Position numbers and translations under genes: made by a program. The notes below the pieces were generated by a model. It saw nothing but the letters and a program-made list of their open reading frames with translations. It had not been told where the DNA came from and ran no database searches. This document shows, piece after piece, positions 10,841 through 55,628 of a stretch of DNA of 64,000 bases (its first letter is position 1; every line of letters begins with the position of its first letter). This DNA comes from Curtobacterium sp. MCPF17_002 (GTDB lineage Bacteria > Actinomycetota > Actinomycetes > Actinomycetales > Microbacteriaceae): assembly GCF_003234115.2 (NCBI RefSeq), contig NZ_CP126251.1:1302001-1366000 (forward strand), read 5' to 3'.

Positions 10841-10913
10841 CGGTATGTCGCAGCGTTCAGCGGCTTCCCGCACACGGCCCCGAGTGGGGTCCCGGGCGTC
10901 GTGGGGCCCGGGT

Positions 10914-10941
10914 TACGTTCGGACGAACCACCCGTCCGAAC
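10914..10941 (+). promoter_or_regulatory. Promoter and inverted repeat before the NRPS-like gene
   Basis: GTTCGGACG (10917-10925) and CGTCCGAAC (10933-10941) form a perfect inverted repeat with a 7-nt spacer, overlapping a candidate -10 TACGTT (10914-10919). A regulator bound here would cover the transcription start. No regulator gene adjoins it. Confidence 0.45.
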
Positions 10942-10963
10942 TGCAGCATGGTGAGGGGACCAC

Positions 10964-36578: not shown

Positions 36579-36850
36579 GGCGGCGCGTCGTGTGACTTCG
36601 GCGGGCCTGACTCCGCCGCCGGCCGCCGCGCGCTGAGATCGCACTTCGTGCCGGTTGGCGTCGCCGCTTCCTGCACGAAGTGCGATCTCGGCGGACCTGA
36701 GCGGCGCGTCGTGTGACTTCGGCGGGCCTGAGCCTGCTGGCGGCTGCCGCGCGCTGAGATCGCACTTCGTGCCGGTTGGCGTCGCCGCTTCCTGCACGAA
36801 GTGCGATCTCGGCGGACCTGAGCGGCGCGTCGTGCGACCTCGGCGAGCCT
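36579..36850. repeat. Family C palindromes in a 121-bp tandem duplication
   Basis: A unit of about 121 bp is repeated a little over twice. Each copy contains 17-bp perfect arms (GAGATCGCACTTCGTGC and its reverse complement, first copy starting at 36634). The 459-nt gap after the LacI gene holds these repeats, a C-rich stretch (36850-36920) and then the promoter and operator at 36962-36985. Confidence 0.75.
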
Positions 36851-36961
36851 GACCCGCCCACCCAGCCCGACCCGACCCCGCCCGGCCCGACCCGTCCCGA
36901 CCGCCCCCAGCCCCGACGCGGCAACGGGTGCAACCAGGTGCGCGGAACGCGACACGTGGTG

Positions 36962-36985
36962 TACGGTTCCCGGCAAGCGCTTTCC
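36962..36985 (+). promoter_or_regulatory. Second LacI operator GGCAAGCGCTTTCC
   Basis: The 14-mer at 36972-36985 is identical to the site at 35381-35394. It lies just after a candidate -10 TACGGT (36962-36967), so a bound repressor would cover the transcription start of the Gfo/Idh-DUF993-epimerase operon. Confidence 0.72.
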
Positions 36986-37027
36986 AGCCCGTCGGGAAGC
37001 CGGCCACAGCGAGCAAGGGAGCACGCG

Positions 37028-38302: not shown

Positions 38303-39498
38303 CCGACTCCTTCACCCTCCTCGCCGCGGACGGCACGACGCGGACGGAAGCCGCACGCGAGCCGGCCGTGACCGCGGCGGCGAAGCCGACCGGTCCGCTC
38401 ACCGAACGGGTCGTCTACGCAGCCGCACACGTCGTCCCACGGGTCGCCGCCGACAACACGCCGGGAGCCCCGGCCGACCTCGACTGGGACGCCACCCTCG
38501 CGTTCCGGCACCACCTCTGGTCGTGGGGGCTCGGCGTCGCCGACGCGATGGACACCGCGCAGCGGAACATGGGCCTCGACCCCGCCGCCACCCGCGAGCT
38601 CGTCACCCGCAGTGCGCACGAAGCGCAGTCCGTCGGAGGCCGCATCGTCGTCGGCGTCAACACGGACGACCTGCTCGACGAGACGGCGAGCGAACAGCAG
38701 ATCGTTGACGCGTACGTCCGGCAGCTCCACCACGCCGAGGACGCCGGCGCCGGGGTGGTGCTCATGGCCAGCCGGCACCTCGCCCGGTTCGCGACCTCCG
38801 CCGCGGACTACCGCCGCGTGTACGCCCGGGTCATCGAGCGGGCGAGTGCGCCCGTGGTGCTGCACTGGCTGGGGGAGGCGTTCGACCCCGCGCTCGCCGG
38901 GTACTTCGGCGGCGCGGACGGGCCGGACACCGTCCTCGCGATCATGCGCGACGCTGGATCCCGGGTCTCGGGCATCAAGATGAGCCTGCTCGACGCGAGC
39001 GCCGAGGTCGCCCTGCGCGACCGGCTCCCGGAGACCGCCCGCATGTTCACCGGCGACGACTTCCACTACGTGGACCTCATCGCCAGCGGGAGCGACGCCC
39101 TCCTCGGCGCCTTCGCCGCCGTCGGCCCCATCGCGTCCGCCGCCGTGCGCGCCCTGCCCGACGAGGCCTGCTACCGCGCCCTCCTCGGTCCCACCGAAGC
39201 CCTCTCACGCCACGTCTTCAGCGCCCCCACCTGGCACTACAAGACCGGCATCGCCTTCCTCGCCTGGCTGAACGGCCACCAGCCCGCGTTCGCCATGGTG
39301 GGCGGCCAGCACGCGGGCCGGTCCCTGCCGCACCTGTCCGAGACGGTGCGGCTCGCGAACGCCTGCGGCGCCCTCGAGGACCCGTCGCTCGCCGCCTCGC
39401 GCTGGCACGACCTGCTCACGTCGGCCGGTGTGCCGGTGACGGCCTGGAGGCCCGGATCACCCGCCGCCGAACCCGCCGTCGCCGAGGTGGTCGCGTGA
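38299..39498 (+). CDS. DUF993 protein (DHDPS-like TIM barrel)
   Basis: The 399-residue protein matches DUF993, a branch of the dihydrodipicolinate synthase/aldolase superfamily: Leu-Trp-Ser-Trp-Gly-Leu-Gly-Val-Ala-Asp-Ala-Met-Asp-Thr-Ala-Gln-Arg near residue 75, and a probable Schiff-base lysine in Gly-Ile-Lys-Met-Ser-Leu near 233. The family has no established reaction; an aldolase or dehydratase step on a keto-sugar is plausible. Starts (GTG) and ends overlap both neighbours. Confidence 0.85.
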   Translation: MTDSFTLLAADGTTRTEAAREPAVTAAAKPTGPLTERVVYAAAHVVPRVAADNTPGAPADLDWDATLAFRHHLWSWGLGVADAMDTAQRNMGLDPAATRELVTRSAHEAQSVGGRIVVGVNTDDLLDETASEQQIVDAYVRQLHHAEDAGAGVVLMASRHLARFATSAADYRRVYARVIERASAPVVLHWLGEAFDPALAGYFGGADGPDTVLAIMRDAGSRVSGIKMSLLDASAEVALRDRLPETARMFTGDDFHYVDLIASGSDALLGAFAAVGPIASAAVRALPDEACYRALLGPTEALSRHVFSAPTWHYKTGIAFLAWLNGHQPAFAMVGGQHAGRSLPHLSETVRLANACGALEDPSLAASRWHDLLTSAGVPVTAWRPGSPAAEPAVAEVVA

Positions 39499-40400
39499 GC
39501 ACCGCAGCAGGCGCGGTGGTCCCCGTGCGGCCGGGTGCGGTCGCACCGCACCCACGCCTCTCGATCAACCAGGCGACGATCAAGTACGCCGCGCTGTCCG
39601 ACGCGCTCGACACCGTGCGGGCCGCCGGGGTCGGGGCGATCGGCACGTGGCGGGAGCCCGTCGCCGAGGTCGGGCTCGACGAGGCCGTCCGCATGGTCGC
39701 CGACTCCGGGCTCCGGGTCTCGTCGCACTGCCGGGGCGGGTTCTTCACCCTGCCCCCGGGGGCCGACCGCCAGCGCGCGCTCGACGACAACCGTCGGGCG
39801 ATCGACGAGACCCGTGCCCTCGCCGCAGCCGGCGCCGGGGGATCGGCAGCGGTCCTCGTGCTCGTCGCCGGGGGACTGCCCGACGGGTCGCGGGACCTCG
39901 CCGGGGCGCGAGGCCGCGTGGCCGATGCCCTCGCCGACCTCGTGCCGCACGCGCTCGACGCCGGCGTGCAGCTCGCCGTGGAGCCCCTGCACCCGATGTA
40001 CGCCGCCGACCGGGCCGTGGTGTCGACCCTGGCGCAGGCGCTCGACCTCGCAGCGCCGTTCCCGGCCGCTGCCGTCGGTGTCGTCGTGGACACGTTCCAC
40101 GTGTGGTGGGACCCGGCGCTCGCCGCGTCCGTGGCCCGCGCCGGAGCCGCCGGCCGGATCGCGTCGTTCCAGGTGTGCGACTGGCTCACGCCGATCGCCG
40201 CCGACCCGCTGCTGTCCCGGGGTGTGATGGGCGACGGGCACATCGACTTCGGGCCGGTGACCGCAGCGGTCTCGGCCACGGGCTACTCGGGTGACGTCGA
40301 GGTGGAGATCTTCAACCAGGCGGTGTGGGACACGCCCGCGGCGTCGGTCGTGGAGCGGGTCGTGCGGGCCTTCGCGTCCGAGGTGCCCCTGCCCGCCTGA
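39495..40400 (+). CDS. Sugar phosphate isomerase/epimerase-like TIM barrel
   Basis: The 301-residue protein has the xylose-isomerase-like barrel metal ligands: Glu in Val-Glu-Pro-Leu-His-Pro-Met-Tyr (near residue 161), Asp/His in Asp-Thr-Phe-His-Val-Trp-Trp-Asp (near 200) and a final Glu in Glu-Val-Glu-Ile-Phe-Asn (near 276). GTG start, 4-nt overlap with DUF993. Gfo/Idh plus TIM-barrel pairs often act on 3-keto-glycosides or inositol-like compounds, a possible role here. Confidence 0.87.
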   Translation: MSTAAGAVVPVRPGAVAPHPRLSINQATIKYAALSDALDTVRAAGVGAIGTWREPVAEVGLDEAVRMVADSGLRVSSHCRGGFFTLPPGADRQRALDDNRRAIDETRALAAAGAGGSAAVLVLVAGGLPDGSRDLAGARGRVADALADLVPHALDAGVQLAVEPLHPMYAADRAVVSTLAQALDLAAPFPAAAVGVVVDTFHVWWDPALAASVARAGAAGRIASFQVCDWLTPIAADPLLSRGVMGDGHIDFGPVTAAVSATGYSGDVEVEIFNQAVWDTPAASVVERVVRAFASEVPLPA

Positions 40401-41827: not shown

Positions 41828-44800
41828 ATGACGTCCACGGACACGGTGGCCGACGCGCGCCACGACGCATCGACCACGAGCACGACCACCACGACCACGA
41901 CCACCACCGATCAGGAACACCGGCCGCCACAGAGCGGCACGGAGGACCCGCAGTACCTCCCGGCGCCGCCGACGGACCGCGAGAAGTACTGGTACATGGG
42001 CCGACAGCACCGCTGGATGCTGTTCGCCCAGGCCGCCGCGTTCGCGCTCATCGCGTCGAGCATCTGGCGCTTCTCCACATCGGCTCCGGGACTGTTGCTG
42101 TTCCTCATCCCGACGACGCTGTACTGCCTGACCCTGGTGATCTCGCTCACGACGAGTTCCCGGAGCAAGCGGTTCCGGAAGCGCGACCACGTCGAGCGGA
42201 TCCGCACGTGGGCGCCGGACCGGTACCCGACGGTGGACGTGTTCCTGCCGACCGCGGGGGAGCCGATCGCGATCCTCGAGAACACCTACTACTGGGTGTC
42301 GAAGCTCCGGTGGCCGACGACCCTGACCGTGTACGTGCTCGACGACGGGGACCGCCCCGAGGTCGCCGACCTCGCGCGCCGCTACGGCTACCGGTACGAG
42401 GTGCGCCCGAACCGCGGCCACCTCAAGAAGGCCGGCAACCTGCGGCACGGCTACGAGCAGTCGGAGGGCGACCTCATCGCGGTGTTCGACGCCGACTTCG
42501 TGCCGCGCGCCGACTACCTGCACGAGCTGGTGCCGTACTTCGACGACCAAGGCCTCGGCATCGTGCAGTCGCCGCAGTTCTTCGACGCCCGCAAGGGGAT
42601 GCACTGGCTGCAGCGCACCGCCGGTGCGACGCAGGAGCTCTTCTACCGCTGGATCCAGCCGGCCCGCGACCGGTCGAACGCGGCCATCTGCGTCGGCACG
42701 TGCGCGATCTACCGTCGTGCCGCACTGGAGCAGGCGGGCGGCTTCGCCCAGATCGGCCACTCCGAGGACGTCCACACCGGGGTGAACCTCATGCGCGTCG
42801 GGTTCCTGGTCCGGTACGTGCCGATCCTGGTGTCGAAGGGCATGTGCCCGGACGACCTGGCATCGTTCCTCAACCAGCAGTACCGCTGGTGCACGGGGTC
42901 GATGTCGCTCCTCGCCGACACGAGCTTCCACGAGAACCCGCACATCAGCCTGCGGCAGCGGATGTGCTTCTGGTCGGGCTTCCTCTACTACATCTCGACC
43001 GCGGTCAACGTGTTCCTGTCGCCGCTCCCGGGCCTCGTGATGCTCTTCGGGCTGCCGCAGTGGATCATGCCGCAGAACTCGGTCTGGCTGCTCGGCGCGA
43101 TGTTCATGTGGCTCGTGGTCGTCCCGATCATGTACAAGTCCCGCTGGCGCATCGACGTCCTGCGGATCCAGTCGCTGTACTCGTTCGCCCACGCCGTCGC
43201 GATCGTGCACGTCCTCACCGGCAAGACGAAGGAGTGGGTGCCCACCGGCGCCGCGAAGAAGGTCACGACGCCGCTCGGCACGCAGATCGCCCGGGTGATG
43301 CGGATCACGGTCACGTCGTCCCTGCTCGTCACGTGGACGGGGCTCGCGTGGGCGACGGTCCGGTTCGGCTTCGACGTGCTCTGGGCGATGTGGATCCTCG
43401 CCGCGATCCACGCCTACGTGCAGGTCCCGATGCTCTTCCTGTCGGTCCCGTCGGCACCGGGGCGCGCGGTCCGGAAGGCGGCTCGGGCGGACCGCCGGGA
43501 GGCGCGACTCGCCGCCCGCAGGCCGGCCCGCCCCGTCGGGGCGTCGGCTTCCACCCCCGCACTCGCCTCCGTCACGGCGGCGGACGCGACCGATGCCGCC
43601 CTGCCGGCACCGCCGCTCTCGCCGGCGGTGAGCCCGTCGTCCCCCGTCGGTTCCGTGCCGGAGCCGAGCCGCGCCTCCCGGCAGGACCGTCCTGCGTTCG
43701 GTGAGCGACTCGACCCGGTCGCGCTGCCGGCTGCTGCCGCCCCCGTCGAGGTGCCGGTCCAGGCCGAGCGTCCGCAGGCGGTCGGACCGCGCGTGTTCCG
43801 GCCGGACATCCAGGGGCTCCGCGCGATCGCGGTGCTCCTCGTCGTCATCTACCACACGGGTGCGCCGGTCCTGAGTGGCGGCTACGTCGGGGTGGACGTG
43901 TTCTTCGCGATCTCCGGGTTCCTCATCACGGGGCAGCTGCTCCGTGAGGTCGACCGCAAGGGCCGGATCGACTTCGGCGCCTTCTACGCCGGGCGCATCC
44001 GGCGGCTGCTGCCGACCGCGCTCCTCGTCATCGCCGTGACCGTGGTGGCGACCCGCGTGTTCGACTCGATCCTGCGCGCCTCGAACGTGGCGTGGGACGG
44101 TGTCGCGGCGACGTTCTTCGCCCTCAACTACCGGCTCGCCGCGCAGGGGGTCGACTACCAGGCCGCGGACGGTCCGGCCTCGCCGCTCGAGCACTTCTGG
44201 TCGCTCGGCGTCGAGGAGCAGTTCTACCTGCTCTGGCCGCTCGTGCTGACGCTGGCGATCGTGCTGTGGAAGCGGCACCGCCGGCTCGCGATGGCCGCCG
44301 TCGTGACGCTCGTGTTCGCCGGCTCGATGTGGGCCTCCGTCACGATCACCGCGCACGACTCGCCGTTGGCGTACTTCTCGATGCAGACCCGTGCGTGGGA
44401 GCTCGCCGCCGGGGCGTTCCTGGCGATCGGCGCCCGATGGCTGAACCGCATCCCCGCGATGCTGCAGGTCGCGCTGACCTGGCTCGGTCTCGGAGCGGTG
44501 CTGGCGAGCGCGTTCGTGTACTCGGACGAGACGCCGTTCCCGGGGACCGCCGCGCTCCTGCCGGTCCTGGGCGCCTGCGCGGTGATCGCCGGCGGCGGCG
44601 TGTACCGCCGGGGTTCGGTCGAGACCGTGCTGCAGCTGAAGCCCTTCCAGGCGATCGGCAAGGTGTCCTACGGCTGGTACCTCTGGCACTGGCCGATGGT
44701 CGTGCTCGTCCCCGTGATGGTGAACCGCGACCTCGGTTGGCTCGAGAAGCTCGAGGTGATGGCGGTCGCACTCTGGGTCGCCACGATCACCTACCACCTC

Positions 44801-45796
44801 ATCGAGTCGCCCTCGGCCCGGGCCAGGTGGAAGCGGATCCGCTGGGCCGCGGTCGGCGCGGCAGCGGCTGCGGTGACGACGGCGACCGCGGTGGTGGTCG
44901 TGTTCTCGGTGCCGGCGCTCGTCGGCAGCGGTGGCACGGTGCAGGCGGCGACGCTCGACCAGGGCAACACGAAGGAGATCCAGTCGTCGATCCAGTCGGC
45001 GCTGAAGACCTCGGACGTGCCGGCGAACCTCACCCCGGGGCTCACCGACGCCGCCGACGACCAGCCGGACTCCACCGACAACGGCTGCCACGCCGGCTAC
45101 CTGCAGATCCAGCAGAAGGCGTGCGTGTACGGCGACCCGACCGGTTCCCGCACCGTCGTGCTCTGGGGCGACTCGCACGCACAGCAGTGGCTGCCCGCGT
45201 TCGACGCCGCCGGCAAGTCCGAGGGCTGGAAGGTCGTCGCGTGGACCAAGGCCGCGTGCCCGGTCGCGCAGGACGTCGAGCTGTTCAACTCGTCGCTGAA
45301 GCGGACCTACACGGAGTGCCCGACCTGGCGCGACGCGTCGATGAAGCGGATCGAGGCGCTCGACCCGGACCTCGTCGTGATGGCGCAGTCGGACAACGTG
45401 CCGGGCAAGCAGGTGTCGAACACGACGTGGGCCGACGGCACCGCCGAGACCGCGGCGACGATGCGGGCCTCGGGCGTGAAGACCGTGTACATGCTCGACA
45501 CGCCGGTGCCGAACGGCGACGCCGTGTCGTGCGTGGCCGAGCACCTCGACACCGTGGGGGAGTGCAACCAGTCGGAGAAGCAGGCGTACGCGGTGTCCGG
45601 CCGCCACGAGGACGTCGCCGAGACCGTGCGTGCCGCGGGCGTGCCGACCGTGGAGCCGCGCGACTGGTTCTGCACGGACGACGGGTGCCCGGTGGTGGTG
45701 CAGGACAAGCTCGTGTACCGCGACCAGACGCACATGTCGACGGCGTACAGCCGGTGGCTCGAGCCGCTCGTGGCGCCGCTGCTGCGGACGTCGTAG
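41828..45796 (+). CDS. Fusion of cellulose-synthase-like GT2 with OafA-type acyltransferase and SGNH domain
   Basis: The 1322-residue membrane protein has three parts. (1) Processive GT2 (about residues 50-560): two N-terminal helices, Asp-Asp-Gly-Asp near 172, Phe-Asp-Ala-Asp-Phe near 220, Ser-Glu-Asp near 312, Gln-Gln-Tyr-Arg-Trp near 350, then several helices; this is the full cellulose/hyaluronan-synthase motif set. (2) A Pro/Ala-rich linker (about 570-655). (3) Acyltransferase-3 (from Arg-Pro-Asp-Ile-Gln-Gly-Leu-Arg-Ala near 657) with about ten helices, followed by an extracytoplasmic SGNH domain with Gly-Asp-Ser-His near 1114 and Asp-Gln-Thr-His near 1299. It should polymerise and extrude a beta-glycan and O-acylate it. 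No PilZ domain or BcsB-like neighbour is present. The first 30 residues include a Thr run. ATG after GGGGAAGG. Confidence 0.88.
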   Translation: MTSTDTVADARHDASTTSTTTTTTTTTDQEHRPPQSGTEDPQYLPAPPTDREKYWYMGRQHRWMLFAQAAAFALIASSIWRFSTSAPGLLLFLIPTTLYCLTLVISLTTSSRSKRFRKRDHVERIRTWAPDRYPTVDVFLPTAGEPIAILENTYYWVSKLRWPTTLTVYVLDDGDRPEVADLARRYGYRYEVRPNRGHLKKAGNLRHGYEQSEGDLIAVFDADFVPRADYLHELVPYFDDQGLGIVQSPQFFDARKGMHWLQRTAGATQELFYRWIQPARDRSNAAICVGTCAIYRRAALEQAGGFAQIGHSEDVHTGVNLMRVGFLVRYVPILVSKGMCPDDLASFLNQQYRWCTGSMSLLADTSFHENPHISLRQRMCFWSGFLYYISTAVNVFLSPLPGLVMLFGLPQWIMPQNSVWLLGAMFMWLVVVPIMYKSRWRIDVLRIQSLYSFAHAVAIVHVLTGKTKEWVPTGAAKKVTTPLGTQIARVMRITVTSSLLVTWTGLAWATVRFGFDVLWAMWILAAIHAYVQVPMLFLSVPSAPGRAVRKAARADRREARLAARRPARPVGASASTPALASVTAADATDAALPAPPLSPAVSPSSPVGSVPEPSRASRQDRPAFGERLDPVALPAAAAPVEVPVQAERPQAVGPRVFRPDIQGLRAIAVLLVVIYHTGAPVLSGGYVGVDVFFAISGFLITGQLLREVDRKGRIDFGAFYAGRIRRLLPTALLVIAVTVVATRVFDSILRASNVAWDGVAATFFALNYRLAAQGVDYQAADGPASPLEHFWSLGVEEQFYLLWPLVLTLAIVLWKRHRRLAMAAVVTLVFAGSMWASVTITAHDSPLAYFSMQTRAWELAAGAFLAIGARWLNRIPAMLQVALTWLGLGAVLASAFVYSDETPFPGTAALLPVLGACAVIAGGGVYRRGSVETVLQLKPFQAIGKVSYGWYLWHWPMVVLVPVMVNRDLGWLEKLEVMAVALWVATITYHLIESPSARARWKRIRWAAVGAAAAAVTTATAVVVVFSVPALVGSGGTVQAATLDQGNTKEIQSSIQSALKTSDVPANLTPGLTDAADDQPDSTDNGCHAGYLQIQQKACVYGDPTGSRTVVLWGDSHAQQWLPAFDAAGKSEGWKVVAWTKAACPVAQDVELFNSSLKRTYTECPTWRDASMKRIEALDPDLVVMAQSDNVPGKQVSNTTWADGTAETAATMRASGVKTVYMLDTPVPNGDAVSCVAEHLDTVGECNQSEKQAYAVSGRHEDVAETVRAAGVPTVEPRDWFCTDDGCPVVVQDKLVYRDQTHMSTAYSRWLEPLVAPLLRTS

Positions 45797-45945: not shown

Positions 45946-46704
45946 TCAGGCGACGGACTCGTCCTCGGGGACCGGCTCGGCGTTCTCGATGCGGGCGCTC
46001 GCCGTGGCCATGTGCTCGTCCATCGCCCGCTGCACGGCGAGCACGTCGCCCGCCCGGAGCGCCTCGAAGATCGCACGGTGCTCGTCGTACGCCGCCTCGG
46101 TCGCCTGGCGCGTCCGGACCCGGCGTCCGACCCACACGCTGAGCATCGACCGGAGGCTCTGCAGCAGGTCGGCGAGCACGTCGTTCCCGGCGGCGCGGGC
46201 GAGCAGAACGTGGAACCGCACGTCGGCGTCGATGAACGCGTCGGGGTCGTCGAGCGCGGTCTCCTGGCGGTCGAGGTAGGTCTGCAGTTCGTCGAGCTGC
46301 GCCGGGGTCGCGCGCTGGGCGGCGAGGATCGCGGCGGTCCGTTCGAGCGACGACCGGATCTCGAGCAGTTCGCGCGTGCGGTTCGAGGCGAGCATGAGCC
46401 CCCACGACAGCGTCGTCGGGAGCAGGTCCGACATCCCGCCGCGCAGGTACGTGCCGGAACCGGGGCGGATCTGCACGATGCCGAGGATCTCGAGGGCGGC
46501 GAGGGCCTCGCGCACGGCGGACCGGCCGACCCCGAGCCGCTCGGCGAGGACCCGCTCGGACGGCAGCCGCGACCCCGGTGCGAGGTCCCCGGCGGTCAGC
46601 AGGGAGACCAGCTGTCGGGCGACCTCGGACGCAGGGGACCCGGCCGGGACGGACTCGAGTTCGAGCCGGATGTTGAGGGGGTCGTTCTCGCTGAACGCGG
46701 GCAT
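45946..46704 (-). CDS. FadR-subfamily GntR regulator of the apiose-type locus
   Basis: The 252-residue protein has a GntR winged helix (about residues 22-90: Leu-Pro-Ser-Glu-Arg-Val-Leu-Ala-Glu-Arg-Leu-Gly-Val-Gly-Arg-Ser-Ala-Val-Arg-Glu-Ala-Leu) and an all-helical FCD ligand domain with metal ligands around Asp and His in Asp-Ala-Asp-Val-Arg-Phe-His. A -10 TACGCT (46716-46711) 6 nt before the ATG implies a leaderless mRNA. The half-palindrome at 46723-46737 lies behind it, so it is autoregulated. It probably senses a pathway sugar acid. Confidence 0.9.
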   Translation of the reverse strand: MPAFSENDPLNIRLELESVPAGSPASEVARQLVSLLTAGDLAPGSRLPSERVLAERLGVGRSAVREALAALEILGIVQIRPGSGTYLRGGMSDLLPTTLSWGLMLASNRTRELLEIRSSLERTAAILAAQRATPAQLDELQTYLDRQETALDDPDAFIDADVRFHVLLARAAGNDVLADLLQSLRSMLSVWVGRRVRTRQATEAAYDEHRAIFEALRAGDVLAVQRAMDEHMATASARIENAEPVPEDESVA

Positions 46705-46710
46705 GCAGTG

Positions 46711-46737
46711 AGCGTACCGGTCGGTCAACCGGTTACC
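46711..46737 (-). promoter_or_regulatory. GntR autoregulatory site GGTCAACCGGTTACC and -10 box
   Basis: The site 46723-46737 shares GGTCAACCGGTT with those at 46761-46772 and 54801-54812. It sits immediately upstream of the TACGCT -10 of the regulator gene. Confidence 0.7.
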
Positions 46738-46761
46738 GGGGACGTCGGATCGCGCCGAATG

Positions 46762-46799
46762 GTCAACCGGTTGACAAGTTGAAGGGGACCGCGCACACT
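46762..46799 (+). promoter_or_regulatory. Operon promoter with perfect GntR operator GTCAACCGGTTGAC
   Basis: The 14-bp perfect palindrome (46762-46775) overlaps a consensus -35 TTGACA (46771-46776). A 17-nt spacer leads to a -10-like CACACT (46794-46799). The regulator would block RNA polymerase at the MFS-kinase operon. Confidence 0.75.
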
Positions 46800-46887
46800 G
46801 GTCTCCGGCGCACCGATGCGCCCACTCCGTGCCGGGCGCAGCAGCCCGTGCCAGGAGTCGAACCATCCCCACCGAGCAGGAGTCATC

Positions 46888-48273
46888 GTGGACATCCCCG
46901 CCACGCGAGGCATCCCCACCTCGGTCGTCGAGAAGACGGCCATCCGCAAGATCGCGATCCGCATCGTGCCGTTCGTCGCACTGATGTTCTTCATCAACTT
47001 CCTCGACCGCACCGCGATCTCCTTCGCCGCCCCGAACGGCATGGAGGCGGACCTCGGTCTGACCGCCGCCCAGTTCGGGTTCGCATCGGGTGTGTTCTTC
47101 GTCGGCTACCTCGTGCTCGAGGTGCCGTCCAACCTGGCGCTCCACAAGTTCGGCGCCCGGATCTGGCTCGCCCGCATCATGATCACGTGGGGCCTCGTCT
47201 CGCTGCTGTTCACGTGGGTGCAGAACTACCCGCAGCTCGTCGGCCTGCGCTTCCTGCTCGGCATCGCCGAGGCCGGCTTCTTCCCCGGCGCGATCCTGTT
47301 CCTGTCGACCTGGGTCCCGGCACGGCACCGCGGCAAGATGCTCGCGCTGTTCTACCTGGCGCAGCCACTCACCAGCGTGATCGGGTCGCCGCTCGCCGGC
47401 TGGCTGATGACGCACGAGGGCCTGCTCGGGGGACTGGCCGGCTGGCGCTTCATGTTCCTCTGCGTCTCGATCCCGGCGATCATCGTCGGCATCCTGTGCC
47501 TGTTCGTGCTCAAGGACAAGCCGTCGCAGGCGAAGTGGCTCGACGAGGACGAGAAGACCTGGCTCGAGGGTGCGCTCGCGAAGGAGAACGCCGCGAAGAG
47601 CGGGAACGGCCACGCCAAGGGCGGCCTCCGCGCGGCCTTCGGCTCCGGGCGTGTCTGGATGCTCGCCGCGGTGTACTTCGGCTTCATCTACGGCCTCTAC
47701 GCGCTGAGCTTCTTCCTGCCGACGATCATCGACGGCTTCCAGGAGCAGTTCGGCACGACGTTCGACCTCTTCCAGAAGGGCCTCATCACGGCGATCCCGT
47801 ACGTGCCCGCCGCGGTCGTCCTCTACTTCTGGTCGCGTGACGCCTTCCGCCGCGGTGTCCGGGTGTGGCACATCGCCGTCCCGGCCCTCGTGGGCGGTCT
47901 GAGCATCCCCGTCGCCCTCTACATGAACAGCCCGGCGGCCACCGTCGCCGTCATCGCGATCACGGCCTCCGCCATCTTCGCGGCGCTGCCGAACTTCTGG
48001 ACGGTGCCGACGCAGTTCCTGACCGGTGCCGCTGCGGCCGCCGGCGTCGCACTCATCAACACCATCGGCAACCTCGGCGGCTTCGCGGCCCCGTACATCA
48101 CGGGTGCGGTCAGCGAGTGGACCGGCGGCTACCAGGTGCCGATGTTCATCGTCGGCTTCTTCATGGTGCTCTCCAGCGTCCTGATGTTCGTCCTCGGCCG
48201 GAACACCAAGAAGCGCGACCAGCAGGACGCAGCAGCGACCGGCGCCGCGACGACCGTGCAGGAGACCGCATGA
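46888..48273 (+). CDS. MFS transporter, anion:cation symporter (ACS) family
   Basis: The 461-residue protein has 12 membrane helices with the ACS-type segment Asn-Phe-Leu-Asp-Arg-Thr-Ala-Ile-Ser-Phe-Ala in helix 1, and Gly-Ile-Ala-Glu-Ala-Gly-Phe-Phe-Pro-Gly in helix 4, as in glucarate, galactonate and tartrate symporters. It should import a sugar acid or lactone such as D-apionate by proton symport. GTG start after CAGGAG. It overlaps the kinase gene by 4 nt. Confidence 0.9.
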   Translation: MDIPATRGIPTSVVEKTAIRKIAIRIVPFVALMFFINFLDRTAISFAAPNGMEADLGLTAAQFGFASGVFFVGYLVLEVPSNLALHKFGARIWLARIMITWGLVSLLFTWVQNYPQLVGLRFLLGIAEAGFFPGAILFLSTWVPARHRGKMLALFYLAQPLTSVIGSPLAGWLMTHEGLLGGLAGWRFMFLCVSIPAIIVGILCLFVLKDKPSQAKWLDEDEKTWLEGALAKENAAKSGNGHAKGGLRAAFGSGRVWMLAAVYFGFIYGLYALSFFLPTIIDGFQEQFGTTFDLFQKGLITAIPYVPAAVVLYFWSRDAFRRGVRVWHIAVPALVGGLSIPVALYMNSPAATVAVIAITASAIFAALPNFWTVPTQFLTGAAAAAGVALINTIGNLGGFAAPYITGAVSEWTGGYQVPMFIVGFFMVLSSVLMFVLGRNTKKRDQQDAAATGAATTVQETA

Positions 48274-49991
48274 CCCGCCTGTTCAACGACCCCGCGGACT
48301 TCGCGGACGAGATGGTCGACGGCTTCGTCGCCGCCAACCGGGCGTGGGTCCGGAAGGTCCACGGCGGGGTGGCCCGCGCCACGACGAGCCCGGAGGGCAC
48401 CGTCGCACTCGTCGTCGGGGGCGGCTCCGGCCACTACCCGGCCTTCGGTGGACTCGTCGGACACGGACTCGCCGCCGGTGCCGCGATGGGGAACCTCTTC
48501 GCGAGCCCCAGCGCCCAGCAGGTCACCGCGGTCGCGAAGGCGTCCGAGCACGGCGCGGGCGTCCTCCTCTCCTACGGCAACTACGCCGGCGACGTCCTCA
48601 ACTTCGACGCCGCGGCCCGTGCGCTGACCGAGGCCGGCATCGCGGTCCGCACGGTCCGCGTGACCGACGACGTCGCATCAGCACCGGCCGCCGAGGCGCA
48701 CAAGCGCCGTGGCATCGCGGGCGACCTCTGCGTCTTCAAGGTCGCCGGCGCCGCCGCCGAGCAGGGCCGGACCCTGGACGATGTCACCGCCGTCGCCGAG
48801 CGTGCCAACGACCGCACCCGCAGCTTCGGCGTCGCCTTCTCCGGCTGCTCGTTGCCCGGTGCCGACGAGCCGCTCTTCACCGTCCCCGAGGGCCGCATGG
48901 CCATCGGCATGGGCATCCACGGCGAGCGGGGCATCGACGAGGCGGACGTCCCCACCGCGGACGGCCTGGCCGACCTGCTGGTCGACAAGCTCCTCACCGA
49001 GGTGCCGGACGGCGTCACGACCGACGGCGCCCGCGTCGTCCCGATCCTCAACGGTCTCGGCTCGGTGAAGTACGAGGAGCTCTTCGTCGTCTTCAACGCC
49101 GTGCAGCGGAAGCTCGCCGACGCGGGGGTCGTCATCGTCGAACCCGAGGTCGGCGAACTCGTCACGAGCTTCGACATGGCGGGCGTCTCGCTGACCCTGT
49201 TCTGGCTCGACGACGAACTCGAGCAGCTCTGGGCCGCTCCCGCCGACAGCCCCGCCTTCCGCAAGGGCGGTGCGGTCCCGCAGGAGCGCCTCCCCGAGCA
49301 CGTCCTCACCGCCGACGTCCAGGCCCCGGTCACCCCGGGCACCCCGGAGTCCCAGGAGTCCGCGCGCGTCGTCGCCGCCGCGATCACCGCCATCCGGACG
49401 ACGATCGACCAGCACGCCGACGAGCTCGGCCGGATCGACGCGGTCGCCGGCGACGGCGACCACGGCATCGGCATGCAGCGCGGTTCCACCGCCGCCGACG
49501 CGGCCGCCGGCGACGCCGCCGACCGCGGTGCCGGTGCCGGCAGCGTGCTCGCCATCGCGGGCGACGCCTGGTCCGACAAGGCCGGTGGCACGTCCGGCGC
49601 GATCTGGGGTGCCGCCCTGGAGGCACTGGGTCGCGTCCTCGGCGACGACTCCCGTCCGACGGCTGCCACCGTCCAGAGCGCGGTGCACGCCGCCGCCGAC
49701 GCGGTCCTCGCCTTCGGTGCGGTGCCCGGCGACAAGACGATGGTCGATGCGCTCGTCCCGTTCGACGAGGTCCTGACCGCACGCGTCGGCGCGGGCGACG
49801 ACCTCGTCACCGCGTGGGCGGCCGCTTCCGCCGCCGCGAGCACCGCGGCCGACGCCACGGCCGCCCTGCTGCCGCGGATGGGGCGCGCCCGTACCCACGG
49901 CGAGGACGCCGTCGGCACCCCCGACGCCGGCGCGGTCTCGTTCGCGCTCATCACCGCCGCGGTCCTCTCCACGATCGCCGTCCCGGCCTGA
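48270..49991 (+). CDS. lerK: DhaK-DhaL fusion kinase, probable L-erythrulose 1-kinase
   Basis: The 573-residue protein joins a DhaK domain (residues 1-330; Gly-Gly-Gly-Ser-Gly-His-Tyr-Pro near 50 and the substrate-hemiaminal histidine in Gly-Ile-His-Gly-Glu-Arg-Gly near 213) to a DhaL ATP domain (about 370-570; Gly-Asp-Gly-Asp-His-Gly near 395), the ATP-dependent dihydroxyacetone-kinase layout. Dihydroxyacetone is possible, but RpiB-like, TIM-like and OiaC-like genes follow, the context of the erythrulose kinases LerK/DerK known from Mycolicibacterium. I infer L-erythrulose as substrate. Confidence 0.82.
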
Positions 49992-50022
49992 AGTCCGATC
50001 CACACCACGAAGGGCAATCCGC

Positions 50023-50523
50023 ATGAGTGAGCAGCAGTTCCGCATCGTCGTCGGCTCGGACGACGCCGGGTTCGACTACAAGGAGATCATCAAGGCCGAC
50101 CTGGCGAAGGACCCCCGGGTCGCGTCCGTGGTCGACGTCGGTGTCGACGCCGACGGACACACCGCGTACCCGCACGTGGCCGTCGACGCGGCGGAGCTCG
50201 TCGCAGCCGGTGAGGCCGACCGCGCGATCCTCGTCTGCGGCACCGGGCTCGGCGTCGCGATCGCGGCGAACAAGGTCCCCGGCATCCGTGCCGTGACTGC
50301 GCACGACTCGTTCTCCGTCGAGCGCTCGATCCTGTCGAACGACGCCCAGGTCCTCTGCATGGGCCAGCGCGTCGTCGGTGTCGAGGTCGCCCGCCGGATG
50401 GCGAAGGAGTGGCTCGGCTACACCTTCGACCCGTCGTCCGCCAGCGCCGAGAAGGTCAACGCCATCTGCGCCTACGAAACAAGCACTGCCGACGGCTCCG
50501 CACCGGTCGGCGCCGACGCATGA
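50023..50523 (+). CDS. eryI: RpiB-family isomerase, probable D-erythrulose 4-phosphate isomerase
   Basis: The 166-residue protein is a LacAB/RpiB fold enzyme: Gly-Ser-Asp-Asp-Ala-Gly-Phe near residues 7-13, the active-site Cys in Leu-Val-Cys-Gly-Thr-Gly-Leu-Gly near 70, and Asn-Asp-Ala-Gln-Val-Leu-Cys-Met-Gly near 106. RpiB homologues in erythritol and threitol clusters (EryI/DerI) convert D-erythrulose 4-phosphate to D-erythrose 4-phosphate. It follows the kinase by 31 nt and overlaps the TIM-like gene. Confidence 0.82.
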
Positions 50524-51320
50524 GCGCCGCCACGGCGACCGCCCCACTGACGATCGGGGTGTCGCTCAAGATGTACTTCTCGCACGCCCGGACGCTCGAG
50601 TGGGCGGCCGCCGTGGCCGACATCGCCCGGAACCACCCGGCGGTGCAGTCCGGAGCGGTCGAGCTCTTCGTCATCCCGACCTTCCCGTCGCTCGTGCCGG
50701 TCGGCGCCGTGCTCGAGGGCACGCCCGTGCTCCTCGGCGCGCAGGACCTGGCCTGGGCCGACGAGGGCGCGTTCACCGGCGAGGTCTCCGGCACCGAGCT
50801 CCGTGAGATCGGTGTCGACCTCGTCGAGATCGCGCACGCCGAGCGTCGCTCCCTCTTCCACGAGACCGACGACGAGGTCGCCGGCAAGGTCCACGCGGCC
50901 TTCCGCAACCACCTGCGGCCGCTGATCTGCGTCGGCGAGACAGAGCAGGCGGCCGACGGGGGCACGACCGCCGCCGTCGCCGAGGTCACCGCGCAGCTCG
51001 ACCGGTTCGTGTCCACGGCCGTCGCGGACCGCATCGCCGGTCCGGTCATCGTCGCCTACGAGCCGGTCTGGGCGATCGGTGCCCCGCAGCCCGCCCCGGA
51101 CGCGCACATCGTCGCGGTCCTCGCGGGGATCGAGCAGCACCTGGCGACCCGGCCGGAGCTCGCCGGCTCCGTCGTGATCTACGGGGGCAGTGCCGGTCCG
51201 GGCCTCCTCACCCGGGGAGCGGGACGCATCGGCGGTCTGTTCCTCGGACGGTTCGCGCACGACCCCGAGGCGATCCGCACGATCCTCGACGAAGCCGAGC
51301 AGCTGGGAGCACGAGCATGA
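50520..51320 (+). CDS. lerI: TIM-like isomerase, probable L-erythrulose 1-phosphate isomerase
   Basis: The 266-residue protein is a triosephosphate isomerase homologue with active-site Lys in Ser-Leu-Lys-Met-Tyr-Phe (near 18), His in Ile-Ala-His-Ala-Glu-Arg-Arg (near 104) and Glu in Ala-Tyr-Glu-Pro-Val-Trp-Ala-Ile-Gly (near 181). The housekeeping loop residues differ (Lys-Met-Tyr instead of Lys-Met-Asn; His-Ala-Glu instead of His-Ser-Glu), as in LerI, which isomerises L-erythrulose 1-phosphate to D-erythrulose 4-phosphate. It overlaps both neighbours by 4 nt. Confidence 0.84.
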
Positions 51321-52162
51321 CCTCCCTCCTCGGCCTCTCCACCTACGCCTACTTCTGGCGCATGTCCGACCGCGTCCCGTCGCCGATGTCCCTCGACGAC
51401 GCGCTCCGCGACGCTGCCTCCCACGACGGCGTCGACCTCTTCCAGATCTGCGACCACCTGCCGCTCGACACCGCGACCGACGAGCGCCTGGCCTCGATCC
51501 GGTCCCTGGCCGCCGACCTCGGTCTCACACTCGAGGTCGGAACCCGCGGCACCCGGCCCGAGCACCTCGCCCGGTACCTGCACGTCGCGCAGCAGCTCGG
51601 CGCGACGCTCGTGCGCAGCATGTGGACGAGCGGCGACGACCAGCCCGACGCGGCCGAGACCGAACGACGCCTGCGGCAGGCGCTCCCCGCCTACGAGCGC
51701 GCGGGCGTGACCCTCGCGCTGGAGACCTACGAGGTCGTCGCCACCGCCGACCTCGTCGCCGTCGTCAAGACGATCGGCTCCGACAGCCTCGGCATCTGCC
51801 TCGACCCAGCCAACACCGTCGCCCGGCTCGAACACCCGGGGGACGTCGTGGCGATGACCGCCCCGTTCGTCGTCAACTGGCACGTCAAGGACTCGGCGTT
51901 CACCCGGTCCCCGGGCTGGGTCGGGTTCCAGTACACCGGCGTCCGCACCGGCACCGGGCTCCTCGACCACGACGCCGTCCGCGCCGCGATCGACCCCGAA
52001 ACCCGTGGCATCAACCGCGTCGTCGAGTTCTGGCTGCCGTGGCAGGACGAGCACGCGGGCGCCGAACCGCGACCGGGCGAGACGCCCGCCGAGACCACCA
52101 CCCGCATCGAGGCGGAGTGGACCGAACACACCATCGAGTACATCAGGAGCAGGGAATCATGA
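51317..52162 (+). CDS. oiaC: Xylose-isomerase-like TIM barrel, probable 3-oxo-isoapionate decarboxylase
   Basis: The 281-residue protein begins Leu-Gly-Leu-Ser-Thr-Tyr-Ala-Tyr-Phe-Trp and carries metal-site residues in Ala-Leu-Glu-Thr-Tyr-Glu (near 137), Cys-Leu-Asp-Pro-Ala-Asn (near 160) and Asn-Trp-His-Val-Lys-Asp (near 185). This pattern recalls OiaC, which decarboxylates 3-oxo-isoapionate to L-erythrulose; it could otherwise be a generic sugar phosphate epimerase. The product would feed the kinase upstream. ATGA overlaps on both sides. Confidence 0.75.
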   Translation: MTSLLGLSTYAYFWRMSDRVPSPMSLDDALRDAASHDGVDLFQICDHLPLDTATDERLASIRSLAADLGLTLEVGTRGTRPEHLARYLHVAQQLGATLVRSMWTSGDDQPDAAETERRLRQALPAYERAGVTLALETYEVVATADLVAVVKTIGSDSLGICLDPANTVARLEHPGDVVAMTAPFVVNWHVKDSAFTRSPGWVGFQYTGVRTGTGLLDHDAVRAAIDPETRGINRVVEFWLPWQDEHAGAEPRPGETPAETTTRIEAEWTEHTIEYIRSRES

Positions 52163-53076
52163 CCGACACCGCCATCACCACCCACACCGTCGCTGCCGGC
52201 TCGGGCACCGCCGACGTCACCGTCGCCGTGATCGGCGCCGGCGGCAAGATGGGCACCCGCGTCTCGAACAACTTCGCGAAGAGCGAGTACACGACGCTCT
52301 ACAGCGAGGCCTCGCCCGCCGGCCAGGAGCGCATCCAGGAGCTCGGGCGCGAGCTCACCGACAGCGTCGAGGCCGCGAAGGTCGCCGACGTCGTCATCCT
52401 CGCCGTGCCGGACGTCGTCCTCGGCAAGGTCTCCGAGCAGCTCGTCCCCGTGATGAAGCCCGGCGCGTCGATCCTGACGCTCGACCCGGCCGCCGCCTAC
52501 GCGGGGCTCCTCGCCAAGCGTGAGGACATCCACTACGCCGTGGCGCACCCGTGCCACCCGTCGGTGTTCCTCGAGCGCACCTCGAAGGAGGAGTGGGACG
52601 ACACCTTCGGTGGCATCGCCGCCCCGCAGGAGGTCATCGCGGCCTTCGACGCGTCCGAGTCCCTCGGCGACGAGGGCGAGCGCGCGAAGGCGATCGCCGA
52701 GGCCGTCATCACGACGATGTACGCGCCGGTCATCCGGGTGCACTGGGTCACCGTGAAGCAGCTCGCCGTGCTCGAGCCGACCCTCGTCGAGACCATCGCC
52801 TGCATGATCGGCGACTTCCTCAACGACGCGCTCGAGGAGACCGTGACCGGTGTCGGGGTGCCCCGCGAGGCCGCGCGCGCCATGCTCTACGGCCACACCT
52901 GGATCGCGCTGACGAACGGCCTCCGCGGCTCGAACCCGTTCTCGGACGCCTGCCACATCGCGATGGGCTACGGCCGCGAGAAGCTCATCAAGGAGGACTG
53001 GAAGCAGGTCTTCGACGACAGCGAGCTCGACTCCGTCATCGCCAAGATGCTCAAGATCGACGCCGTCAAGCGCTGA
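52159..53076 (+). CDS. apnO: Phosphogluconate-dehydrogenase-like oxidoreductase, probable D-apionate oxidoisomerase
   Basis: The 305-residue protein has a Rossmann motif Val-Ile-Gly-Ala-Gly-Gly-Lys-Met-Gly-Thr-Arg-Val-Ser-Asn-Asn (near residue 25) and a long helical C-terminal domain ending Asp-Asp-Ser-Glu-Leu-Asp-Ser-Val-Ile-Ala-Lys-Met-Leu-Lys. It resembles ApnO, which oxidises and rearranges D-apionate to 3-oxo-isoapionate. My assignment rests on remembered family features plus the operon partners (OiaC-, LerK-, LerI- and EryI-like). It is the last gene before a strong terminator. Confidence 0.75.
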   Translation: MTDTAITTHTVAAGSGTADVTVAVIGAGGKMGTRVSNNFAKSEYTTLYSEASPAGQERIQELGRELTDSVEAAKVADVVILAVPDVVLGKVSEQLVPVMKPGASILTLDPAAAYAGLLAKREDIHYAVAHPCHPSVFLERTSKEEWDDTFGGIAAPQEVIAAFDASESLGDEGERAKAIAEAVITTMYAPVIRVHWVTVKQLAVLEPTLVETIACMIGDFLNDALEETVTGVGVPREAARAMLYGHTWIALTNGLRGSNPFSDACHIAMGYGREKLIKEDWKQVFDDSELDSVIAKMLKIDAVKR

Positions 53077-53102
53077 CCCGCGCTGACCCGCGCTGACAGA
53101 CC

Positions 53103-53139
53103 GGAACGCCCCGCCGACCCCCTTCCGGCGGGGCGTTCC
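53103..53139 (+). terminator. Strong terminator hairpin ending the operon
   Basis: GGAACGCCCCGCCG (53103-53116) pairs perfectly with CGGCGGGGCGTTCC (53126-53139) around a 9-nt loop, a 14-bp stem. It lies between the convergent apnO-like and apnL-like genes and can serve both. Confidence 0.85.
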
Positions 53140-53156
53140 CCTTGCCCAAGGCGCAG

Positions 53157-54782
53157 TCAAGGCCGTCGGAACACCCGGGCAGCGGGGGAGCGGGTCCCGT
53201 CCGAGGTGACCACGCCCCGCGGCCCCCAGGCCTCGGCGAGCGTGATCGACGCGACGCCGGACACCGTGAGCGCTGCCACCGACGCCGCGAACCAGTCATC
53301 GGCGGCCCGCGAGTGCTGCCCCGGGTCGGTCGCGTCCGGCACGTCCTGCGGTCCGTACCCGTCCACCGTCGACGGGTCCGTCACCACCCGACCGGGCGCC
53401 GTCGCGACCGCGTTGAACCGTGGCCGCAGCGTCACCGGTCCGATGTGGAGCTGCCTGCCGGCGGCCAGCCTGGAGGCGCTGCTCACCACCCAGCGCTGCA
53501 TCCGCACCGACTCGGTCACCTGGGCACGGGACCGGTCGTGCATCTGCGGCGTGAGAGCGAACGTGAGCGGGCCGTCCCACCCGCCGAAGACGTCGATCGA
53601 ACGGTTCAGCTCGGTGAAGTGGGCGCGGGTACCGGCGACGGCCGCGAGGCCACCGTGTGCGCCCGCCGCTGCCCGCAGCGCGTCCTGCAGTGCGGGCGTG
53701 GTCACGTGCGACACGGGGTCGTACGCACCGACCCGGGCGACCGGCCCGTCGGCGAGGACCGCGTCGATCGCGGCCCGCAGCAGCGCCGGGTCGTCGGTCA
53801 CGAACCGGACGTCGAGCGGTGCCCCGCCGGCGTCCCGACGGGCCGAGGCCAGCACCGCGGCGACGTTCGGGTCGCCGAGCACCGGCTCGACCAGGATCGG
53901 CACGTCGCGGAGCAGCGCGGCGTCGTCCGGACGCGCTGCAGTCGGTGCGGAGCCCGCGAGGAGCTGGAGCGTCGGTGGCGGGGTGACCACGGTGGTGGGA
54001 GCCGGCCCGTCCAGCAGGGCGAGGGCCGGGGCGGGGGAGGCCGCGCCTCCCGGCGGGAACGCACCTGCCGGACCGCAGTCCAGCGCGACGGACTGGTGGA
54101 TCGTGGTGCCCGCCTCGAGCGCGACCGGGAACGGCTCGGACAGCGGCGTCGAGTAGGTCTTGTACGAGGCGTCGGTCCAGTTGCGCTGGTCCTCCATCTC
54201 GAAGCCGTCGCCGAGGAGGGAGACGTCGACGTCCACGCCGCCGGTCGTCCACGTGTACCCGACCACGTCGGTGGCGGGCTGGTGCGGTGCGATCCAGGTC
54301 GGGAACACGTGGTCGGTCGGGCCGCTGAACGGGTGCCGGACCGTGAACGGTGTGCCCGCCAGGGTCGGCGGGTGCAGGACGACGAGTCCGATGCGGTTGC
54401 GGCGGAACGCCCTGGTCGTCGTGCCGACGGCGTCGACCACCACGGTGCCGCCCGCGACGGACACGTCGAGCACGACGTCGAGGACCGGAACGGCGTCGTA
54501 CGTGCTCGTCGCCTCGATCCGGACGTGCGCGCTCGAGTCGTCGTGCACCTCGACCGTGCGACGTCGGACCGTGTCGTCGGCGGTGCGCCAGTTGTGGTCG
54601 CGGGTGACGAACCGGATCGCCCGCAGGACCGTGACGCCGCGGTGCTGCACGTCCGCGACCTCGGCTCCGCGGAGGGTCAGCCGCCACGGCCCGACGGTGA
54701 CGACCTCGTCGGCGTCGGCGTCGGCGTTGACATCGGTCGGCCGGTCCCACACGTCGTCGTCGGGCACTTCGTCGTCGGTCAC
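53157..54782 (-). CDS. apnL: Probable D-apionate lactonase (ApnL-like)
   Basis: The 541-residue protein lacks a signal peptide. Its N-terminal 240 residues are beta-rich (Trp-Arg-Leu-Thr-Leu-Arg-Gly-Ala-Glu; repeated Thr/Val strands), and the C-terminal half contains Phe-Thr-Glu-Leu-Asn-Arg, Leu-Thr-Phe-Ala-Leu-Thr-Pro-Gln-Met-His-Asp-Arg-Ser and Pro-Arg-Phe-Asn-Ala-Val-Ala, features I associate with the large ApnL lactonase that opens D-apionolactone. The GTG at 54782 is preceded by the shared GntR operator at 54801. Confidence in the exact family is moderate. Confidence 0.65.
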   Translation of the reverse strand: MTDDEVPDDDVWDRPTDVNADADADEVVTVGPWRLTLRGAEVADVQHRGVTVLRAIRFVTRDHNWRTADDTVRRRTVEVHDDSSAHVRIEATSTYDAVPVLDVVLDVSVAGGTVVVDAVGTTTRAFRRNRIGLVVLHPPTLAGTPFTVRHPFSGPTDHVFPTWIAPHQPATDVVGYTWTTGGVDVDVSLLGDGFEMEDQRNWTDASYKTYSTPLSEPFPVALEAGTTIHQSVALDCGPAGAFPPGGAASPAPALALLDGPAPTTVVTPPPTLQLLAGSAPTAARPDDAALLRDVPILVEPVLGDPNVAAVLASARRDAGGAPLDVRFVTDDPALLRAAIDAVLADGPVARVGAYDPVSHVTTPALQDALRAAAGAHGGLAAVAGTRAHFTELNRSIDVFGGWDGPLTFALTPQMHDRSRAQVTESVRMQRWVVSSASRLAAGRQLHIGPVTLRPRFNAVATAPGRVVTDPSTVDGYGPQDVPDATDPGQHSRAADDWFAASVAALTVSGVASITLAEAWGPRGVVTSDGTRSPAARVFRRP

Positions 54783-54800
54783 GGTCTCTTGCTACCAGTC

Positions 54801-54813
54801 GGTCAACCGGTTG
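54801..54813. promoter_or_regulatory. Third GntR operator GGTCAACCGGTTG
   Basis: This site lies 19 bp before the lactonase start and 51 bp before the SDR start, in the divergent intergenic region. It matches the 12-mer GGTCAACCGGTT of the other two sites, placing these genes in the same regulon as the main operon. Confidence 0.75.
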
Positions 54814-54863
54814 CGCAATGATGGGTTCGTGGAGCGACGGCGCTCCGAGGACGGAGTGCCCGC

Positions 54864-55628
54864 ATGACCGCACGACTGACCGGCAGGACCGCACTGGTGA
54901 CGGGAGCCGGGTCCGGCATCGGCCGCGCGATCGCCGACCGCTTCGTCGACGAGGGGGCACGTGTGGTCTACGCCGACCGCGACACCGCCGCCGCCGTTGC
55001 AGCAGCGGCAGCGTCAGCGGCAGGCGAGCACGCCGTCTCGTTGACGATGGACATCGCCGACGAGGCCAGCGTCGAAGCCGGGTACGCCGCCCTCGCCGCC
55101 CGGGGAGCGACGCCGGACGTGGTCGTCGCCAACGCCGGCGTGCAGCTGTTCGGCCACGACGCGAAGGTCGCCGACGTCTCGCTCGAGACCTGGAGCCGGA
55201 CGCTCGCGGTCAACCTCACCGGCACCTTCCTCACGGTGAAGCACGCGGTGCGGGCGATGCTCCCGGCCGGCGGAGGATCGATCATCGCGACCGGTTCCCC
55301 GACGGGCCTCAACGGGGAGGGGGCCGACTTCGCCGCGTACTCGTCCACGAAGGGCGGCATCCACGCCCTCGTCCGCGCGACCGCGATGGCGTACGCACGC
55401 GACGGCATCCGGGTGAACACCGTCGTGCCGGGCTACACCGAGACGTCGCTCGTGTCGTCGATCTCGGGCGACCCGGCGTCACGCGCGGCGATCGTGTCCC
55501 GGATCCCGCTCGGCCGCCCCGGCACCCCGGACGACGTCACCGGGATCATGGTCTACCTGGCGAGCGACGAGTCGGCGTACGCCACCGGCGCCGAGTTCCG
55601 CGTCGACGGCGGCATGACGACCCTGTAG
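54864..55628 (+). CDS. SDR-family dehydrogenase, candidate D-apiose or polyol dehydrogenase
   Basis: The 254-residue classical SDR has Thr-Gly-Ala-Gly-Ser-Gly-Ile-Gly (residues 13-20), Ala-Asn-Ala-Gly (near 90), and catalytic Ser and Tyr-Ser-Ser-Thr-Lys (near 157). Length and motifs fit sugar or polyol dehydrogenases that use NAD. By regulation and position it should perform the first oxidation, for example D-apiose to D-apionolactone, although the known D-apiose dehydrogenase belongs to the Gfo/Idh family. This substrate is inferred. Confidence 0.85.

Follow-up and report, generated by a model that had tools for sequence, protein, structure and literature searches.

How does an actinobacterium begin to use D-apiose when its genome offers no close relative of the known D-apiose dehydrogenase? 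We address this question in Curtobacterium sp. MCPF17_002, whose chromosome is one contig of 3,822,211 bases (NZ_CP126251.1). The window, the whole stretch of 64,000 nucleotides analysed here (chromosome positions 1,302,001 to 1,366,000), holds at 45946..55628 nine genes for which a preliminary description had claimed a complete pathway from D-apiose or D-apionate to D-erythrose 4-phosphate. According to our analysis, the cluster is, with a probability of about 0.78, a two-unit D-apiose catabolic regulon that ends at D-erythrose 4-phosphate and has a short-chain dehydrogenase/reductase (SDR) as its entry enzyme.

The known D-apiose dehydrogenase, ApsD, belongs to the Gfo/Idh/MocA family. Carter et al. 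2018, as cited in PMC6302742, reportedly described a D-apiose pathway in which ApnO and OiaC turn apionate into L-erythrulose. The pathway itself is already known; for an SDR at its entry, for the operator and for its spread among Actinobacteria, the literature searched apparently has no report. No SDR-type or actinobacterial apiose enzyme appeared in the open-access literature, among the matches listed, and subscription papers lie mostly outside it, which leaves the absence unproved. Apiose use is known in proteobacteria and gut anaerobes (PMC11747546, PMC13001218; these two sources, like PMC10733421 below, are cited for excerpts of their text). In the excerpt of PMC13001218, the D-apiose pathway of E. 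coli has no apiose isomerase gene, and the authors think that two putative oxidoreductases replace the isomerase; this is another pathway type. If our reading is true, apiose use extends to plant-associated and soil Actinobacteria, with a testable first enzyme and an operator for finding the remaining regulon.

An SDR linked to ApnL as the probable first enzyme

Pfam places none of the nine genes in the Gfo/Idh/MocA family, and the genome yielded no close ApsD-like protein, the best of 20 matches being 32% identical to the single Salipiger query. The classical SDR encoded at 54864..55628 on the plus strand (PF13561, 3.3e-59) is our candidate for the conversion of D-apiose to apionolactone, and the simplest account is that it probably replaces ApsD as a non-orthologous first enzyme. 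Annotation that searches for ApsD alone would overlook the pathway here. The protein has the TGxxxGIG motif and the N-S-Y-K residues of classical SDRs; N117, S145, Y159 and K163, together with D38, are invariant in 32 sequences. We take the four to be catalytic, and the aspartate to be the residue usual for NAD+ binding.

The SDR keeps company with ApnL, the putative D-apionolactonase. Among 398 genomes of the family, all 59 that carry the SDR also carry ApnL, which is present in 64 (Fisher p 4e-65, relatedness of the genomes ignored); three ApnL matches at E 7-8e-4 (G079, G428, G439) were discarded as noise. An order-level sample of 327 genomes, four of whose SDR genomes are shared with the family sample, gave ApnL in 23 of 24 SDR genomes and in 27 genomes overall, the two lists being compared by eye. 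SDR identities are bimodal, at 58-89% or at most 38% with none between, and of the 65 SDRs covered to at least 80%, 62 are at most 400 bp from ApnL. At 1e-50, the SDR search returned no plasmid record.

We then looked at 80 ApnL loci, the best 80 of at least 588 candidates and biased toward relatives of the window. An SDR (at least 55% identity) is present in 66, one of them with a fragment only; a Gfo/Idh gene in 1, a Sphaerobacteraceae metagenome-assembled genome (L197); neither in 13; and both in none. The SDR also occurs in the OiaK/OiaX version of the pathway: at L097 it stands (65%) with an ABC transporter and OiaK-, ApnO-, ApnL- and RuBisCO-like OiaX-type genes, and the ApsD-like (Gfo/Idh) query has no match in this locus. 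We consider it likely that an actinobacterial SDR-type D-apiose 1-dehydrogenase independently replaced ApsD and forms with ApnL a movable entry module of two genes that would feed OiaC/erythrulose or OiaK/OiaX routes under a conserved operator, ApnL being a lactonase on a glycoside-hydrolase-like scaffold.

An OiaC-like gene (47% and 49%) is found as well at about 13.5-14.5 kb in the OiaK-type loci L097 and L098, which may therefore have two decarboxylases.

Two facing units share an operator-like palindrome

All nine reading frames are intact and open end to end. In the first unit, a GntR/FCD gene (45946..46704, minus strand; PF07729 2.4e-30, PF00392 2.9e-19) diverges from MFS-DhaKL-RpiB-TIM-OiaC-ApnO; the second is a divergent pair of the ApnL-like and SDR genes, facing the first. 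Pfam gave GntR and FCD, MFS, Dak1 and Dak2, LacAB_rpiB, TIM, AP_endonuc_2, PGDH_C and SDR for eight of the proteins and no match for the ApnL-like one. Four junctions (MFS/DhaKL, RpiB/TIM, TIM/OiaC and OiaC/ApnO) are 4-base overlaps, and 31 bases separate DhaKL from RpiB. Start codons were chosen at 46888 (GTG) for the MFS gene and 46704 for the regulator, the 641-residue frame listed from 45946 being too long. Between the convergent ApnO and ApnL genes lies a proposed terminator (53103..53139), a hairpin with a 14-bp stem and a 9-nt loop; it folds at -38.8 kcal/mol against -22.9 (sd 2.8) in 200 shuffles (z -5.7) and lacks a strong T run. A simple terminator scan with a loop limit of 8 did not list it. 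Reading frames, Pfam families, junctions and folding thus bear out the layout first described, with six nearly abutting genes, the 14-bp-stem hairpin and a facing ApnL-like/SDR pair. The gene order is kept within the genus and beyond.

The palindrome TCAACCGGTTGA is found at both promoters and, in other genera, at the corresponding genes. Between the regulator and the MFS gene, copy 1 (46723..46738) has the core TCAACCGGTTAC, with 2 mismatches to TCAACCGGTTGA, and copy 2 (46761..46776) has the exact core; copy 3 (54801..54816), between the divergent ApnL and SDR genes, has TCAACCGGTTGC, with 1 mismatch. The chromosome has exactly two copies of the 13-mer GGTCAACCGGTTG, one in each of these two gaps. 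At up to 1 mismatch the 13-mer gave 19 matches on both strands versus 3 for the reversed pattern, and further sites therefore exist in the chromosome. One near-palindromic operator-like site outside the cluster, at chromosome 3316987-3317002 and matched on both strands, is a possible further regulon member.

In relatives, we looked for the 12-mer core in the 300 bp upstream of each gene. At up to 1 mismatch, 43 of 81 distinct regulators and 33 of 93 distinct SDRs have it there, and at up to 2 mismatches 71 of the regulators do; shuffles led us to expect at most 0.4 in each case, and 0.1 for the SDRs. In a first control, mononucleotide shuffling was applied to 141 stretches, among them several that repeat a genome region; the second, again with mononucleotide shuffles, removed only loci with identical leading protein stretches and kept regulators of at least 45% identity. 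The core also precedes the SDR in L128 and L136, stretches without a regulator match. The remaining 60 SDRs have no core site, and may need none of their own in many Microbacterium loci, where the SDR comes after ApnO in the same orientation. We propose that the GntR/FCD protein represses both units at the TCAACCGGTTGA palindromes. That the cluster is a single regulon, as had been suggested, is supported by gene order, co-occurrence and the shared palindrome.

Proposed route to D-erythrose 4-phosphate

In the route that we infer from sequence, the MFS transporter (46888..48273, plus strand like the five genes after it; PF07690 5.6e-49; TIGR00893 281 bits, cut-off 395) would import apiose, or apionate. 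The SDR would oxidise D-apiose at C1 to apionolactone, in place of the Gfo/Idh/MocA enzyme ApsD, and the ApnL-like protein (53157..54782, minus strand) would open apionolactone to D-apionate. A PGDH_C-family oxidoreductase (52159..53076; PF16896 6.8e-54), the putative D-apionate oxidoisomerase ApnO, would oxidise and rearrange D-apionate to 3-oxo-isoapionate. The xylose-isomerase-like barrel protein (51317..52162; PF01261 2.9e-18) would decarboxylate 3-oxo-isoapionate to L-erythrulose as OiaC.

The ApnO-like protein has NAD-binding and PGDH_C domains and the neighbours expected of ApnO, which are ApnL and OiaC or OiaK. It is 63.5% identical to its Erwinia homologue and about 41% to alphaproteobacterial ones, two of which neighbour ApnL and a Gfo/Idh gene. 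The OiaC-like AP_endonuc_2 barrel adjoins ApnO and is 49% and 46% identical to the barrels of the Erwinia and Pantoea clusters; its E136, D163, H189 and E237, invariant in 18 sequences, presumably bind the metal.

Below L-erythrulose, the DhaK-DhaL fusion kinase (48270..49991; Dak1 3.9e-110, Dak2 4.5e-40; above cut-off for the dihydroxyacetone kinase family NF011049) would act as the L-erythrulose 1-kinase LerK and form L-erythrulose 1-phosphate. The TIM-like protein (50520..51320; PF00121 8.5e-51) as LerI and the RpiB-like protein (50023..50523; PF02502 5.2e-46) as DerI would then yield D-erythrulose 4-phosphate and D-erythrose 4-phosphate in turn. LerK, LerI and DerI connect L-erythrulose to D-erythrose 4-phosphate in the excerpt of PMC10733421; the same three reactions are proposed here, where the module would be fed by OiaC, unlike that tetritol module with its tetritol dehydrogenase. 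The best PDB match of the TIM-like protein is a 'putative triosephosphate isomerase' (162 bits), and the second is the L-erythrulose-1-phosphate isomerase 11ef (2.1e-37, 132 bits). Its two other homologues in the genome are 80% and 41% identical to it; a housekeeping role is unlikely because the more distant one provides another TIM.

Among the steps, RpiB as DerI is the weakest assignment. The protein passes the actinobacterial ribose-5-phosphate isomerase model (TIGR02133, RPI_actino), has 87% identity to another RpiB of this genome and reaches 147 of 240 bits on the D-erythrulose-4-phosphate isomerase model NF051858. This last model is rhizobial by name, so the shortfall does not exclude D-erythrulose-4-phosphate isomerase activity. 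RpiB may, on the other hand, have a housekeeping role.

The genome holds a second cluster with related genes (L205, chromosome 70001-90000). At 3445-11010 it has GntR/FCD, AP_endonuc_2 barrel, 3-hydroxyacyl-CoA-dehydrogenase-like (3HCDH), SDR, MFS, DhaKL and TIM-like genes, the DhaKL protein being 80% and the TIM-like protein 79% identical to their counterparts in the window. It could be a parallel sugar-acid route of oxidation, decarboxylation and erythrulose.

Weighing the assignment

A number of observations speak against an SDR-initiated apiose pathway. The SDR is missing from 5 of the 64 ApnL genomes in the family sample, one of which retains a fragment, and from 4 of the 27 in the order sample, including 3 of the 5 ApnL genomes of one family (f14); one order-sample genome (G751) has the SDR and no ApnL match at 1e-20. 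The 13 ApnL loci with neither dehydrogenase nearby include several from Arthrobacter. A divergent ApsD could escape one alphaproteobacterial query. At L097, OiaK (387 of 700 bits) and OiaX (468 of 700) are under their curated cut-offs. RpiB looks like an ordinary ribose-phosphate isomerase. The NCBIfam search gave the OiaC-like and ApnO-like proteins no equivalog-model match for these functions. On the NCBIfam D-apionate lactonase model NF049900, the ApnL-like protein scores 170 bits in two stretches (6.2e-50) against a curated cut-off of 750, and its predicted fold is that of glycosidases. Finally, the genome has no PF13204 apiosidase, other apiose-releasing families not having been searched for.

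We call the 53157-54782 protein ApnL-like because it is homologous to the model and falls under the cut-off, and the functions of ApnL, OiaC and ApnO rest on context for these reasons of scoring. A Salipiger ApnL beside a Gfo/Idh gene is likewise under the cut-off, at 633 bits. The earlier claim that all steps of a complete apiose/apionate pathway are present holds as far as family matches, gene order and co-occurrence support the assignment; it needs amending in that no close ApsD-like protein turned up, RpiB and ApnL fall under the cut-offs of the D-erythrulose-4-phosphate isomerase and D-apionate lactonase models, and the OiaC-like and ApnO-like proteins match no equivalog model for these functions. 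Its further proposal, apiose from rhamnogalacturonan II or flavonoid glycosides, is unsupported because of the missing PF13204 apiosidase. A rhamnosidase, GH43 or MGH1-like gene lies near the module in some relatives (L116, L100, L166), three scattered cases and too few to argue from.

At eight of the 13 loci with neither enzyme we scanned ten neighbouring genes and found no dehydrogenase substitute among them: they encode three arginases, a DUF4143 protein, an MGH1-like glycosidase, an HTH_18/GyrI regulator, two SMP-30 lactonases, a binding protein and a LacI regulator. In G307, which shares its contig with one of these loci (L152), the SDR sits on a different contig. The SMP-30/gluconolactonase genes adjoin ApnL (L152 8834-9745, L192 9054-9953) and perhaps encode a second lactonase for the same step.

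The alternative that survives best is that the cell imports D-apionate or apionolactone itself to feed the core and that the SDR has another job, for example from a tetritol to L-erythrulose. This would suit the best PDB matches of the SDR, a mixed set of SDRs, and the excerpt of PMC10733421, where LerK, LerI and DerI serve tetritols too. It would also suit the MFS, DhaKL, TIM, OiaC, ApnO and RpiB core found without ApnL and SDR on Erwinia and Pantoea plasmids, and the family genomes with a strong ApnO match (78 of 398; E <= 1e-3 adds 11 weak ones, for 89 in all), 16 of which have neither ApnL nor SDR, against 58 with both, 4 with ApnL only and none with the SDR only. The SDR, however, follows ApnL and not the erythrulose genes: at 1e-75 it is found in 0 of these 16 genomes, and in the seven core-only loci viewed with their context, TIM and RpiB stand beside ApnO in all seven and DhaKL in five, two being cut by contig ends. 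It adjoins ApnL in L128 and L136, stretches that have no LerK or LerI match, and it is present in the OiaK/OiaX version, which needs no erythrulose kinase. We regard this alternative as unlikely; the plasmid-borne core fits an apionate-using core with an optional front end that makes apionate from apiose.

A second alternative, a different aldose as the starting sugar, is very improbable. The SDR and ApnL would then handle that aldose and its lactone, the ApnO-like and OiaC-like proteins would process the corresponding acid, and a tetrulose would again be formed. Such a reading could draw on the 31-45% identity of ApnL to homologues of other actinobacterial genera, on its score under the NF049900 cut-off, on a predicted fold common to glycoside hydrolases, from which the substrate is therefore not readable, and on L205, which suggests that other compounds are also fed into the erythrulose module. 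Against it, ApnL-, ApnO-, OiaK- and OiaX-like genes stand together at L097, as do ApnL-, ApnO-, OiaK-like and RuBisCO-like genes at L197, both apiose sets, and an alignment of 19 ApnL sequences that reaches from the window to alphaproteobacteria (L036 and L039 among them) has 40 columns without variation.

The predicted ApnL model (pLDDT 90.0) combines a mutarotase-like N-domain with a glycosidase-like barrel. These two domains fill the fold-search listing. The absence of a solved ApnL structure from the matches listed is no evidence of a new fold.

Distribution and relation to known systems

The core is also found in Erwinia, in Pantoea and in many Actinobacteria. The cluster is patchy in the genus, since ApnL is present in 25 of 66 genomes, the window's included. 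At 20 of these ApnL loci, all nine genes are in order in 17; one (L058) has all nine with broken frames, and L057 and L059 are rearranged or cut.

As in the pathway of Carter et al. 2018, ApnL-, ApnO- and OiaC-like proteins, a DhaK-type kinase and TIM-like and RpiB-like isomerases are encoded in one cluster; here, unlike there, an SDR stands in the place of ApsD, the host is an actinobacterium, the regulator is GntR/FCD and the transporter is MFS. The plasmid clusters of Erwinia sp. E602 (L034) and Pantoea sp. At-9b (L035) share MFS, DhaKL, TIM, OiaC and ApnO in the same order plus RpiB, at 44-67% identity, but have no ApnL and no SDR, an RpiB gene in divergent orientation and a regulator annotated as a sugar-binding transcriptional regulator.

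The alphaproteobacterial apiose sets of Salipiger (L039) and strain LCG007 share ApnL and ApnO homologues with the window. In Salipiger, a NanR-annotated regulator adjoins ApnL, and the dehydrogenase, unlike here, is Gfo/Idh, with a four-carbon acid sugar kinase and an ABC transporter; in one Salipiger and one Sinorhizobium locus the Gfo/Idh gene adjoins ApnL. In LCG007 the place of OiaC and the erythrulose module is taken by OiaK and OiaX; this strain, whose cluster is annotated as ApnL, ApsD, ApnO, OiaK and OiaX in the excerpt of PMC11747546, grew on D-apiose.

One locus (L104, in G095) has SDR, ApnL, OiaC and ApnO and no DhaKL or TIM match within 20 kb. Elsewhere in the window, a Gfo/Idh/MocA gene followed by an AP_endonuc_2 barrel gene (36776-40400) marks another sugar or cyclitol cluster; the matches listed for the ApsD-like query do not include this Gfo/Idh gene. 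Between that cluster and the regulon, at 41828-45796, a single 1322-residue frame combines glycosyltransferase 2, acyltransferase 3 and SGNH domains.

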